IMG/VR virus record: IMGVR_UViG_3300049846_000917 | Coordinates: 1-20,625 of that record | Source of the DNA: a virus | Reading direction: 5' to 3' (one strand) | DNA length: 20,625 nucleotides | Shown here: piece by piece, positions 16,878 to 20,625 of the stretch | Layout: the number at the start of each line of letters is the position of its first letter | Position numbering within the stretch: the first letter of the stretch is position 1 | Position numbers and translations under genes: made by a program | The notes under the pieces: generated by a model | Database searches by the model: none | Seen by the model: the letters and a program-made list of their open reading frames with translations, nothing else | What the model was told of the DNA's origin: nothing

Positions 16878-17053
16878 TCCTGATGACGCTGAGCCTCGCC
16901 GCCGTTACTCTGATTGCAGGAGTAACGGTGAGCGAAGCGGCATTCGATCGGTATTATTCAACAAACACTGTTGTCGGTCGAAATGACACGATGCACAAAA
17001 TGATTTCAGCTTTGAGCAAGAAGACTTACCTGCTTTGGACGCTTACTGACTAA
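16844..17053 (+). CDS. Small exported or membrane-anchored protein
   Basis: A 69-residue protein with an AGAAGAAAG ribosome binding site before ATG 16844. Residues 1-7 are basic, about 9-30 are hydrophobic, and VSEAA at 29-33 is a good signal peptidase site. This would release a 37-residue mature peptide rich in Lys, Ser and Tyr. If uncleaved it would be a one-helix membrane protein, and a holin-like or spanin-like role would be possible. It is the last + strand gene. Its TAA overlaps the stop codon of the opposing gene, with no terminator between them. Confidence 0.6.
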   Translation: MRKSTKKIATVVLMTLSLAAVTLIAGVTVSEAAFDRYYSTNTVVGRNDTMHKMISALSKKTYLLWTLTD

Positions 17054-17496
17054 TCGATCACTTCGGTCACTATCTTTAATATCGGCATTTCAAAAATCAG
17101 TTTAAGGAACTCGTCTTTAAGGCCGAGTTCCTTAGCTGTCGCAAGTAGCGTTTCCGTTTTAGCAAAAGATATGTCAGATGCGACCGTGTGCTTATCCCTG
17201 TCTTTACGATGAGCTTTTTCGACGCTCCACCTTGGGGAGTAAATGTACCTAGCTAGGAACAGCCCCATGACCAAATCACGCTTATCATCTGGTAAGTCAG
17301 GAAGAATTTCCTTTACGACCAGTGCGATGTTCTCGGGGCTATACCGTTCCATTCGCTCTATTTTGGTAGAATTGAGATAGAGCGTCTGCGCCTCTTTCTT
17401 TTTTCTCCTGATCTTTTTGGTCTCGCGTATCCTCGCTTTTAGCTCGTTCCCGGCTTTGATTCTTTTATCGGTTATTGTTGGGTCGTTTTCTTCCAT
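17050..17496 (-). CDS. Unknown protein, last gene of the recombination operon
   Basis: A 148-residue protein. ATG 17496 is preferred over GTG 17499, as GGAGG at 17508-17504 then has a 7-base spacing. The N-terminal 45 residues are very basic (ETKKIRRKKKE), suitable for nucleic acid contact or disorder. The rest is helical, with DLPDDKRDLVMGLFLARYIY at about 86 onward and a hydrophobic C-terminal helix. No family is recognised. It lies 16 bases downstream of the Rad50-type ATPase lobe and is probably co-translated, so a role in the same recombination complex is possible. Confidence 0.6.
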   Translation of the reverse strand: MEENDPTITDKRIKAGNELKARIRETKKIRRKKKEAQTLYLNSTKIERMERYSPENIALVVKEILPDLPDDKRDLVMGLFLARYIYSPRWSVEKAHRKDRDKHTVASDISFAKTETLLATAKELGLKDEFLKLIFEMPILKIVTEVID

Positions 17497-17512
17497 CACT
17501 ATGCCTCCGTGC

Positions 17513-18115
17513 TTAGAATTGAATGATTTTACCGATTCTAAGTTTCTGATTGTGCGTCACGATGACGAACTGGATGTTTAGTAGCTCCGACATTTCTAAA
17601 ACCATTTCTTGCACTGAATCCATCAAGTCCTCACTGACGCACCGGAAAGGCTCATCGAGGATGAGCAAGCGCCTTCTAGCAGGCCGGGATAGGATCAGCG
17701 AAGTCGCCCGCAGTGCGAACGAAGTTACATCCAGCAACCCCCCGCCACTCGTTTCGCTTACATCCATTTTTACTCCGTTCTTGACGAAGTAGGGCGTCGC
17801 CACCGTCTTCCCCCGCATCTTCTTGAATTCAAGGATGAATTCGTAACCGTCGCCCCACACAGCTTGCAGGCACCTTGTAACAGATTCCGCAATCTGAGTG
17901 TGTGCCCTACGCTGTACTGCTTCGGAAACTGTCTGAATGATGCTCTGGGCGGTTTCAATTCGGTGTTTCTTCCGCTTCGCTTTCCTTAGCATCTTCCGCT
18001 CGCGCCTAAGGGAAAGTCTTACCGACTTGTACTGCGAGAGCAATTCATCAATCTTTTTTCGGAAGATCAAGAATTTTTCCCCACTTCTTTTCATACTTTG
18101 CTTTGAGTCGTCCAT
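17513..18115 (-). CDS. Rad50/SbcC-like ATPase, C-terminal lobe only
   Basis: A 200-residue protein. The frame extends upstream to 18139, but ATG 18115 is preferred for its GGGGAG 7 bases before. Residues about 15-75 are a basic coiled coil. Residues 85-118 form a beta region. Then come the ABC signature SGGG at 123-126 within ETSGGGLLDVTSFALR, Walker B LLILDEPF at 150-157 and the His switch VTHN at 186-189. There is no Walker A, so the protein cannot bind ATP alone and must pair with an N-terminal lobe. A candidate for that lobe is the partial gene at the right edge. The sequence FRCVSEDLMD replaces the usual D-loop region, similar to gp46-like phage ATPases. Function: the ATPase of a Mre11-Rad50-type complex in end resection and recombination. 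Confidence 0.85.
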   Translation of the reverse strand: MDDSKQSMKRSGEKFLIFRKKIDELLSQYKSVRLSLRRERKMLRKAKRKKHRIETAQSIIQTVSEAVQRRAHTQIAESVTRCLQAVWGDGYEFILEFKKMRGKTVATPYFVKNGVKMDVSETSGGGLLDVTSFALRATSLILSRPARRRLLILDEPFRCVSEDLMDSVQEMVLEMSELLNIQFVIVTHNQKLRIGKIIQF

Positions 18116-18308
18116 AAGTTCTCCCCGCACGAAGTTCACGTTTTTTCAACCGATTGAGAAGTTTCTTTGCGGCGGCAATATCGTCTGTGCCGTAGGCCGA
18201 CTTGAGTTGTTTTTTCAGTTGGAGCAGTTCGCCCTTCAACTGTTCGTACTCTGCCTTGGCTTTTTCCGTACGACGGAGCAGATCGGGGTAGTTATCCATA
18301 GCGATCAT
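18048..18308 (-). CDS. Small coiled-coil protein between nuclease and ATPase lobe
   Basis: An 86-residue protein, start ATG 18308, which shares one base with the upstream TGA (GGGAAGG lies 3-5 bases before); GTG 18311 and ATG 18299 are alternatives. Residues about 10-45 and 50-75 are heptad-like, rich in Lys, Glu, Leu and Ala, with a YGTDD turn between, so it probably folds as a helical hairpin. The family is not recognised, but its composition is like the coiled-coil arm of Rad50. It overlaps the next gene (the ATPase lobe) by 68 bases. It could be a detached part of the Rad50 coiled coil, or a clamp subunit. Confidence 0.6.
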   Translation of the reverse strand: MIAMDNYPDLLRRTEKAKAEYEQLKGELLQLKKQLKSAYGTDDIAAAKKLLNRLKKRELRAGRTYGRLKAKYEKKWGKILDLPKKD

Positions 18309-18631
18309 CACGCCTTCCCGTTGAGTTTGAGGATTTTGTGAACCATCTTTTCGGGGGCATAAGCCTTAACGAATAGTTGGTTGTCAAATCGAAGCGCCCG
18401 CCGCATTCGATAGTTATTGTGCATCTTCTCGGCGAGTTTTTTCAGCTTCGCCTTACCCCGCGATTCGGAGATAACTTTTTTCGTAAGGGTGTGGGTGAGC
18501 ATCCAGCACGGCCCAAGGCCCGTCCACTTCGCTATGTACAAGTTGGCTTTCTTGCACACGATTCCTTTAGCGTCGATTGTCGAGCCGTTATCGAGAAGAA
18601 TCACCAAATCCTTGCTTTTCTTCCATTTCAT
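18308..18631 (-). CDS. Unknown 107-residue protein in the recombination operon
   Basis: ATG 18631 overlaps the upstream TGA by an ATGA junction, with GGAGG shortly before it. The N-terminal part is beta-like (DLVILLDNGSTIDAKGIV). It is followed by a WTGLGPCWMLTHTLTKK segment and a basic helix (KAKLKKLAEKMHNN), then strands and a helical end. No catalytic motif is seen. The tight overlap with the SbcD-like gene and with the coiled-coil gene suggests co-expression with the Mre11-Rad50-like complex. I do not recognise it. Confidence 0.6.
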   Translation of the reverse strand: MKWKKSKDLVILLDNGSTIDAKGIVCKKANLYIAKWTGLGPCWMLTHTLTKKVISESRGKAKLKKLAEKMHNNYRMRRALRFDNQLFVKAYAPEKMVHKILKLNGKA

Positions 18632-19626
18632 TCCCGTCCCTCCAGAGCGGATTGAACTTCCTCACGCAAGTCGGGGTCGGCCCCGATGGACTCCAGTTGG
18701 GCGAGGCACATCGTTTTGAAGTCCTCACACTTTCCCACCATTTCCCCCAGCTTGGCGATAGTCTCGGACATACTCGACTTCGCCTTGTCTTTCTTGACCG
18801 ATTTTACCCACGTGTCTTCCGAAATGTCGAGGTATGCCCGTCGAACCGTCTTATTCGAGTAGACGATGCCGACGCTGGGGCGGTGCCTCTCTTCCTCGTC
18901 GCGGCGACGGGTGAACGCCCCGCAGTTGTAGACGAACACGCCGTCGTGCTTCCCCTCAAACGGACTGTGATTGTCGCCGAAGATCGCAATGTCGAAATTC
19001 CGGGTTGCGTACTTCTCCGCCTGTGCTTTCCAGTATTTGTCTTGCGGGGCGCCGGGGAATGTATGCCCGTCTTTCCAGCAGTAGTCGTGAACCACTGCAA
19101 TTCGGATCGTTTCTTCGTCCTTGTCGCCCCACGCCGTAGGCAATTCAGCACCCCAATCGAATCCGTAGATTTCGAGTCGATGATCCCGTGTGGCTTTGTC
19201 TATGGGGCTTACCGAACTTAACTGCACCAAATGGTCGAGAGTGTGGATAGTCGCATACGGCGACTGATCGATCAATCCAATGTTGTGGTAGGGCATTTCG
19301 TGCTGACCTGCCACCGTATAGAACTTCTCCGCATCGCGTCTGCGTAGCCACTCCATGAAAGCGTTCGTCAGGCGATGCGGCCCGCGCCAGGTGTCGAAAA
19401 TGTCACCGGCAATCAGAATCGGAATGCTCTCGCACGATACGTTGTCGTGCGACAGTTTCTTCCGAATGTGTATCACTTGGGCCAGGTAGCTCAGTTGCGC
19501 CTTGATCCAGTCAGTCTCCGTCTCGCGGCGGGGCGGGGGCTTGTCTGACAAGTGAACGTCCGATAGGCAGATGGCTACCGGGTATGTGTGTTTCGTCGGT
19601 GCTTTGGGGAGTTCGATTTGCCACAT
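18628..19626 (-). CDS. SbcD/Mre11-like metallophosphoesterase nuclease
   Basis: A 332-residue protein with AAAGGAGA 8 bases before ATG 19626. The calcineurin-type phosphoesterase motifs appear in order: SDVH at 22-25, GDIFD at 74-78, GQHE at 107-110, VVHDY at 178-182, and FGDNH at 216-220. The two metals of the family are held by Asp, His and Asn from these motifs. Two differ from the standard: GQHE replaces GNHD/E, with Gln for the metal-binding Asn, and GDNH replaces GHxH. The 100 C-terminal residues are charged and helical and probably hold the Rad50-binding region. Expected function: DNA end processing with the Rad50-like subunits encoded on either side. Confidence 0.88.
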   Translation of the reverse strand: MWQIELPKAPTKHTYPVAICLSDVHLSDKPPPRRETETDWIKAQLSYLAQVIHIRKKLSHDNVSCESIPILIAGDIFDTWRGPHRLTNAFMEWLRRRDAEKFYTVAGQHEMPYHNIGLIDQSPYATIHTLDHLVQLSSVSPIDKATRDHRLEIYGFDWGAELPTAWGDKDEETIRIAVVHDYCWKDGHTFPGAPQDKYWKAQAEKYATRNFDIAIFGDNHSPFEGKHDGVFVYNCGAFTRRRDEEERHRPSVGIVYSNKTVRRAYLDISEDTWVKSVKKDKAKSSMSETIAKLGEMVGKCEDFKTMCLAQLESIGADPDLREEVQSALEGRE

Positions 19627-20162
19627 GCTGAGTCTCCTTTAGATTGTAAATGTTTCCATGTTTTGCCGACTACAGCTAACCTAATAGTAACCGGCGAACA
19701 TTTGAATACGGCGCCGAGATAAACCCAAGTTTTGTTAAATCGAGTGCGGAGTCTTTTAGCGTACCGAACTATTTGATCCGTTAAAACTGCTTGTTTGTGT
19801 TTTTCTCCTATCGGTCGTGTTTCGTATTTCAGCTTATCTTTTTCATTTCGAACGTGCGTGCTCCATGAAAGGTTTTTCAATCTATTATCGGATCTTATGT
19901 TGTTCGCATGTCGTGCTTCTTTCCCCGGAGGTCTTGGTCCGACAAATGCTTCCAGCACAAGTTTGTGACCAGTGACTAGGCACTGTTTACCGTCATCCCG
20001 CTTCATACAGTAAATTGCATAACCGTCTTTGTTGACTGACCCCTTATTGATACGCCAAGAATTAGATAAATGGTTATTATTGTACCGGGAGTACAGCGTC
20101 CCGTTTATGTGAATCCTGTAGTTTCTAAAATTGCGAATTTTACGGATGTTTCTTTTTAGCAT
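19575..20162 (-). CDS. HNH homing endonuclease with C-terminal HTH
   Basis: A 195-residue protein with a strong TAGGAGG site before ATG 20162. The HNH domain spans about residues 46-110: a GHKLVLEAF segment with His66, then ARHANNIRSDNRLKNLSW with His85, Asn93 and Asn97. Residues about 119-172 (GEKHKQAVLTDQIV to GKTWKHL) look like the helix-turn-helix found at the C-terminus of I-HmuI-type free-standing endonucleases. It overlaps the zinc-hook gene by 23 bases and the nuclease gene by 52 bases, and is more AT-rich than both. No intron is apparent. It probably nicks or cuts a nearby intergenic target in related phages lacking it and is a selfish insertion. Confidence 0.88.
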   Translation of the reverse strand: MLKRNIRKIRNFRNYRIHINGTLYSRYNNNHLSNSWRINKGSVNKDGYAIYCMKRDDGKQCLVTGHKLVLEAFVGPRPPGKEARHANNIRSDNRLKNLSWSTHVRNEKDKLKYETRPIGEKHKQAVLTDQIVRYAKRLRTRFNKTWVYLGAVFKCSPVTIRLAVVGKTWKHLQSKGDSACGKSNSPKHRRNTHTR

Positions 20163-20625
20163 GTTTTCCTCCTAATCGGCCGCAAAGAGGGCACCTTTTC
20201 TTGGTTATAGTTTTAATCTTGGAGTCAATCTCTTCGATCAATTCGCGTTTTTGCTCCAGCCCTTCTTCCGCCTCTTCAATATCCCGAATTAGATATTCCA
20301 GGATACGTCGATCTTCAGCGCAGTCATCCCCTTTCTTCCGTGCCTTATCTAATCTCTCTGCATCGGGGACTATGTTGGTACGCTCTAGTTCCTTTTCGGT
20401 TTGTGAGATCGCTTTCAGGGCTTTCTCTAATCGCTTGCGCTTATTGTGGGCAGTGAGCGCCCTACGTGCGGCGCTCGATAGCTTTTTAATTGCATATACG
20501 CGATTTTGGCGCGTTTTAATTCGTTTTTCGAGTTTGATTGCCCTTCGCAGCAAAAACGCGCCATTTTGCGTTTTATGCGAAATGGCGCGGTATCGCTTAT
20601 AGGCGCTAGTTAGCTCGTCTAATTG
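20140..20625 (-). CDS. Rad50/SbcC-like N-terminal half, C-terminal part (5'-partial)
   Basis: The frame is open to the window edge, with 161 residues visible. The first in-frame start-like codon (TTG 20553) is not the real start. Nearly all of it is a charged coiled coil (Lys, Glu, Arg, Leu in heptads). It ends with CPLCGRLGG, a CxxC zinc-hook motif about 13 residues before the stop. Rad50 proteins have the hook in the middle of a long coiled coil, so this gene stops right after the hook. The Walker A lobe is expected beyond the edge. The descending arm and Walker B lobe are provided by another gene (17513-18115). The last few residues overlap the HNH gene and may have been changed by its insertion. 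Confidence 0.75.
   Translation of the reverse strand, partial: QLDELTSAYKRYRAISHKTQNGAFLLRRAIKLEKRIKTRQNRVYAIKKLSSAARRALTAHNKRKRLEKALKAISQTEKELERTNIVPDAERLDKARKKGDDCAEDRRILEYLIRDIEEAEEGLEQKRELIEEIDSKIKTITKKRCPLCGRLGGKHAKKKHP
20557..20589 (-). repeat. 10-bp inverted repeat inside the zinc-hook gene
   Basis: cgcgccattt (20557-20566) pairs perfectly with 20580-20589 around a 13-base loop. It lies within the coding frame of the Rad50-like half. The 10-mer gcgccatttt also occurs at 13415-13424, just before the tail-tip gene pair. Confidence 0.5.

Follow-up and report, generated by a model that had tools for sequence, protein, structure and literature searches.

The question raised by this locus is whether a viral Rad50, which in the known Rad50/SbcC systems is a single chain, can be encoded by separate genes that together supply one ATPase. 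The window, i.e., the whole stretch of DNA analysed, is an entire IMG/VR virus record (20,625 bases), probably a fragment of a genome. Read from the right edge along the minus strand, in transcription order, it contains a frame ending in a CPLCG motif, an HNH gene, a Mre11/SbcD-like gene, a gene for a 107 aa protein, a gene for a coil protein, a Rad50 C-lobe gene and a gene for a 149 aa protein. The first-pass annotation had placed an HNH gene, an SbcD-like nuclease and two small proteins between two Rad50 halves; all of these were present, and the observation of a split Rad50 in the window was confirmed. The Mre11/SbcD-like nuclease (332 aa; 18628..19626, minus strand) was recognized by PF00149 (Metallophos, 5e-6), and the 107 aa protein (18308..18631, minus strand) gave no Pfam or PHROGs match. 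The 149 aa protein encoded after the C-lobe gene on the same strand (17050-17499) was without convincing family matches in Pfam or PHROG.

The gene at 17513..18115 (minus strand, 200 aa) codes for a short coil and ATPase motifs. The signature (a signature-like SGGG), the Walker B (LLILDEP) and the His switch (VTHN) attributed to it earlier were all seen, together with a D-loop, and Walker A was absent, as had also been stated. A GTG start at 18139 is possible, and the start of the gene overlaps the coil gene by 68 nt. The protein matched PHROG 15167 (2e-19), and the profile of its family (44 members) gave Rad50 C-lobe chains as the best PDB matches (3e-15), the B chains of the P. furiosus Rad50 entries matching best. 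The predicted product is a stand-alone Rad50 C-lobe.

The minus-strand frame 20625..20140 is helical, open at the right edge, and has the C-terminus ...KKRCPLCGRLGGKHAKKKHP (stop), in which CPLCG begins 17 residues ahead of the stop codon. Its 161 aa were assigned to the C-terminal part of a Rad50 N-half, consisting of arm helices and a terminal putative zinc-hook motif, on the basis of the sequence and of a profile for which ten complete N-halves from related contigs were used. Against this profile the frame scored 52.7 bits (E 2.1e-14) over positions 189-331 of 334, which is the arm-plus-hook part, whereas 200 composition-shuffled bodies carrying the same tail scored at most 20 bits; the claim that the right-edge gene closes on a CPLCG hook after a coil is borne out by these results. 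The Pfam and PHROG libraries do not identify the frame because it is too short and too coiled. The window's own Walker A lobe is not visible because the record stops at 20625; it is expected, by inference, to begin about 480 nt to the right of the edge. An exact 24-mer search from the right end found no continuation beyond it, and scans of viral contigs with single proteins, the Mre11-like protein and the hook frame of the window, gave no relatives.

The first relative, a 68-kb contig (L001), encodes a 290-aa protein with a Walker A near its start and the C-terminus ...LECPLCGK, and its gene order is N-half, Mre11, small genes including one for a 77-aa helical protein, and C-lobe. A profile scan of viral contigs and one genome scan yielded at least 84 further loci. 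The split recurred in more than 60 viral loci, among them those of Bacillus phage vB_BboS-125, Microcystis phage Mvi-JY20 and jumbo phage LR745208, whose N-halves have the C-termini ICPLCEQTHKGGGC, CSQCNRLVLGGNPCQSSS and CPVCGSLPGTKCSKPSS, respectively, and those of four Bacillales genome contigs. A CxxC motif, mostly CPLCG, was located no more than 40 residues from the stop in 65 of the 67 complete non-redundant N-halves (about 290-520 aa), as compared with 35 of 600 background long ORFs and none of 11 full-length ATPases; the first hook cysteine lay a median of 13 residues ahead of the stop (range 6-39, 60 loci). When 39 N-halves were aligned, the Walker A glycines and lysine, Y83, P98, Q115 (probably the Q-loop) and the two terminal cysteines were invariant, and of these only the hook cysteines lie beyond the ATPase lobe; zinc binding by them is inferred. 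The N-half profile matched Rad50 best in the PDB (3e-15). A Walker A N-lobe had been looked for in the frame of the hook, and in the relatives it lies upstream of the hook in the same frame, that of the window being off the contig.

In all 56 non-redundant loci with an N-half and a C-lobe, the latter is a separate gene, and the genes are on the same strand. The order N-half, Mre11, coil, C-lobe was found in 46 of these loci and the order N-half, coil, C-lobe, Mre11 in eight; of the remaining two, one had no detected coil and the other (L079) contained a fusion. The Mre11-like nuclease gene lies either between the Rad50 halves or after both. The division of the predicted Rad50 into a hook-ending N-half and a separate C-lobe is supported as a conserved trait of a lineage, shared by many uncultured phages, and not an oddity of one contig, in line with what the first-pass annotation had suggested. 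Independent recurrence of the pattern, also in complete phage records, led to the rejection of an assembly error as the source of the split. A separate full-length SbcC elsewhere in the genome, which would have refuted the split, was not found in the relatives: none of the 22 virus records searched whole had a second AAA_23 protein above the cut-off, the sole one being the N-half or its fusion. Many of these records are fragments, but those of vB_BboS-125, Magritte and Mvi-JY20 carry the label complete. The four genomes that host the prophage-like copies encode long AAA_23 proteins of their own, which is normal for cells. The N-lobe tree was mostly weakly supported, and a single origin of the split forms was not rejected (p-AU 0.865) and not proven either.

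KS5 gp28, YMC P52, phage G gp375 and part of L080-L090 matched the N-lobe but proved to be ordinary single-chain ATPases and were used as controls. In vB_BboS-125 an unannotated Mre11-like ORF was observed between gp36 and gp37 (L002 8863-9843; NC_048735.1 22423-23403). In Microbacterium phage Magritte the N-half, a coil-like gene and the C-lobe are dispersed over the genome (L006 4001-5053, L005 4220-4480 and L003 284-934, respectively), and the N-half is without a CxxC hook, which counts against the reading as a divided complex. Magritte gp247 (L005 5006-6244), annotated as an ASCE ATPase, has no Walker A and, on a reading of the sequence alone, looks like a sliding clamp.

Two natural fusions tie the parts of the module together. 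In L079 one 771-aa frame comprises Mre11, the N-half, the hook and about 136 more residues with a coil-like stretch, this post-hook part matching the coil profile with E 1e-4, and a separate C-lobe gene is next; in L072 Mre11 is fused to the N-half and the chain ends at the hook. Examination of related phages for gene order and fusions, proposed earlier, gave these two fusions in addition to the two conserved orders. The AlphaFold2 model of the L079 N-half (mean pLDDT 77, pTM 0.42) showed an ATPase lobe, helices up to the hook and helices after it, and Foldseek with this model returned Rad50 first and A7KV18 as the best viral structure match. A7KV18 of Bacillus phage 0305phi8-36 was listed in 2011 as a Mre11/Rad50 fusion, one P-loop NTPase segment of which "was not observed" (PMC3175470). 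For such fusions no separate C-lobe gene was reported (PMC3175470), whereas the gene next to the L079 fusion is a C-lobe; by inference, a separate C-lobe gene likely accounts for the missing ATP-binding segment of 0305phi8-36.

The phage module shares with Rad50/SbcC (Mre11-Rad50, SbcCD and T4 gp46/gp47) an N-lobe with Walker A and Q-loop, an arm with a CxxC hook, a C-lobe with signature, Walker B and His switch, and a Mre11-like partner gene nearby. In contrast to those one-chain proteins, its N-lobe with the hook, its C-lobe and the two-helix protein are separate genes, and the N-half chain ends at the hook and does not turn back. A two-chain head is physically possible, as crystallised P. 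furiosus Rad50 shows. In the entries for the catalytic domain of the latter (PDB 1f2t, 1f2u, 1ii8 and 3qkr) the N- and C-lobes are likewise separate chains, A and B; these entries are truncated laboratory constructs without the hook, whereas the phage proteins are divided naturally and one of the chains retains the hook. Aeh1 NrdA, T4 topoisomerase gp60/39 and gp43A/B also combine two chains into a working enzyme and have endonuclease genes at the junction (PMC2988022), but they are single cases, whereas the Rad50 split, located at the arm apex, is common to a large lineage.

The open-access papers searched contained no account of a Rad50 that is split at its hook, subscription papers and preprints being outside the scope of the search. 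PHROG families 15167 ("ATPase"), 16465 ("exonuclease") and 18563 (unknown) exist and are not linked to one another in PHROGs; the split explains why phage C-lobes are annotated as a lone "ATPase" and N-halves as "exonuclease". Models of Mre11-Rad50 assume a single continuous antiparallel arm along which signals pass from head to hook and back, with the hook on a closed loop. Here nature appears to have cut Rad50 at the joint by which its two arms are normally held together, and a lineage with a natural cut at the hook is a direct test of the continuous-arm models. The split puts head assembly, arm pairing and hook dimerisation in different proteins, each of which can be mixed, omitted or mutated singly.

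We regard it as very probable that these genes encode a naturally divided phage Mre11-Rad50 (SbcCD-like) complex, composed of a hook-ending N-half, a separate C-lobe and the two-helix protein encoded upstream of the C-lobe. What can be read from the predicted genes is the split, the terminal hook, the separate C-lobe, the colinear one-strand order of N-half, coil and C-lobe, and the Mre11-like partner gene; assembly of the complex is only inferred because no complex could be modelled. Since the two ABC lobes sit on different chains, the ATPase head must assemble from two proteins. The N-half chain would contribute the ATPase N-lobe, the ascending arm and, at its very C-terminus, the zinc hook; association of N-lobe and C-lobe by way of the ABC fold and the coil root would give one head, and two heads would sandwich two ATP. 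Mre11 is inferred to bind the roots, an ATP-dependent dimer with Mre11 being supposed by analogy with Rad50/SbcC, and the terminal hooks of two N-halves may be joined through one zinc ion. Like T4 gp46/gp47, such a complex would probably process DNA ends in recombination and replication.

The place of the coil protein in this complex is less firmly settled. In the window it is encoded at 18048..18302 or 18048..18311 (minus strand), has 84-87 aa and matches the coil profile with E 2e-17, the window member being among the profile seeds. Its AlphaFold2 model (pLDDT 94.7, pTM 0.60) consists of helices 2-37 and 42-78 separated by a four-residue turn; neither covariation in the coil family nor Foldseek discriminated between a hairpin and a kinked strut. 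Genes of this family (75-95 aa, two helices) lie directly upstream of the C-lobe in nearly all loci, often with overlapping start and stop. Of the two small proteins noted earlier between the halves, the coil protein belongs to the module on this ground, whereas membership of the 107 aa protein was not shown. The coil protein might form a stretch of the descending arm or act as a small clamp at the root of the arm. The ascending arm has about 139-355 aa, and the coil protein together with the coil of the C-lobe has in most loci about 116-150 aa; the two lengths are not correlated (rho 0.03; boundaries are approximate). A coil protein that simply rebuilds the whole descending arm fits a short subclade (139-145 vs. 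116-139 aa) and was rejected over all loci because the arm and coil lengths are uncorrelated. Since the arm varies in length and the coil plus C-lobe coil is nearly constant, the hook-proximal arm of long members is probably not fully paired, or is folded on itself.

The lack of correlation between coil and arm lengths also leaves some room for an independent gene, e.g., for a scaffold or helper, that merely adjoins the C-lobe, the complex then having two Rad50 pieces only. In the PDB the coil profile matched generic coiled coils only, and coil-like genes occur near a sliding-clamp-like gene in jumbo phage LR745208 and in Magritte. We consider this unlikely, though not to be dismissed: the adjacency of coil and C-lobe with its overlapping starts and stops is kept in both gene orders, and the L079 fusion carries a coil-like stretch after the hook.

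A narrower version of the divided complex, a three-piece, open-armed Rad50, is held only tentatively and with somewhat less than even confidence. It supposes that covalent continuity at the hook was lost throughout the lineage, that the two-helix subunit completes or regulates the arm, and that the metal site of Mre11 was altered alongside. In the Mre11-like protein of the window, which is 31% identical to that of L001, DxH, GD and the catalytic His are kept, and GQHE and GDNH replace GNH(D/E) and GHxH, respectively. Of the five metal motifs, DxH, GD and His were present in 64 of 64 family members; 33 of the 64 had Q for N in GNH(D/E) and 46 had D for the first H of GHxH, the window being included in both groups, and every Gln variant also carried the Asp. 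Nuclease activity is not certain, since much of the family has non-canonical residues at the metal site.

It is very improbable that the N-half and the C-lobe serve different machines, with the N-half pairing with itself or another protein and the C-lobe being a leftover or a regulator. The mismatched arm lengths and the dispersed genes of Magritte would be compatible with this, but each chain lacks half of the ABC ATP site and both retain their ATP motifs. Furthermore, the genes keep the same strand and a fixed order in 56 loci, and the 22 records offered no other AAA_23 partner above the cut-off.

The HNH gene (HNH_3, 195 aa; 19575..20162, minus strand; PF13392 5e-9, PHROG 59 1e-22) overlaps the stop of the N-half with its start by 23 nt. 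It is present between the halves in the window, as the first-pass annotation had reported, but is not part of the conserved arrangement: no relative of it was found between N-half and C-lobe in the other loci. A local accident in which a homing endonuclease interrupted a normal sbcC of the window phage and left two fragments can be given hardly any credence and is refuted for the window, since, for all that the HNH gene stands immediately behind the hook and that some phage genes, e.g., Aeh1 nrdA and T4 gene 60, have been split by homing endonucleases (PMC2988022), the same split is common to more than 60 loci without this gene, the break is at the same place of the molecule everywhere, and the halves retain their invariant motifs.

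The gene is free-standing, encodes an HNH domain and occupies a junction that is without such a gene in relatives; its product is probably a free-standing homing endonuclease, inserted between the N-half and Mre11 genes, whose homing activity is inferred. Free-standing endonucleases of T4 overlap their neighbours likewise, and endonuclease insertions elsewhere have split genes whose products still assemble (PMC2988022). The HNH gene seems to have arrived later, at a junction already in place; it is specific to the window and did not cause the split, the first cause of which may still have been an ancient endonuclease insertion. Genes observed between the Rad50 pieces elsewhere code for an AP2-domain protein (L002 7023-7595) and, as judged from its sequence, an HNH-like protein (L007 2979-3710), which suggests that the junction of the Rad50 pieces attracts mobile-type genes.
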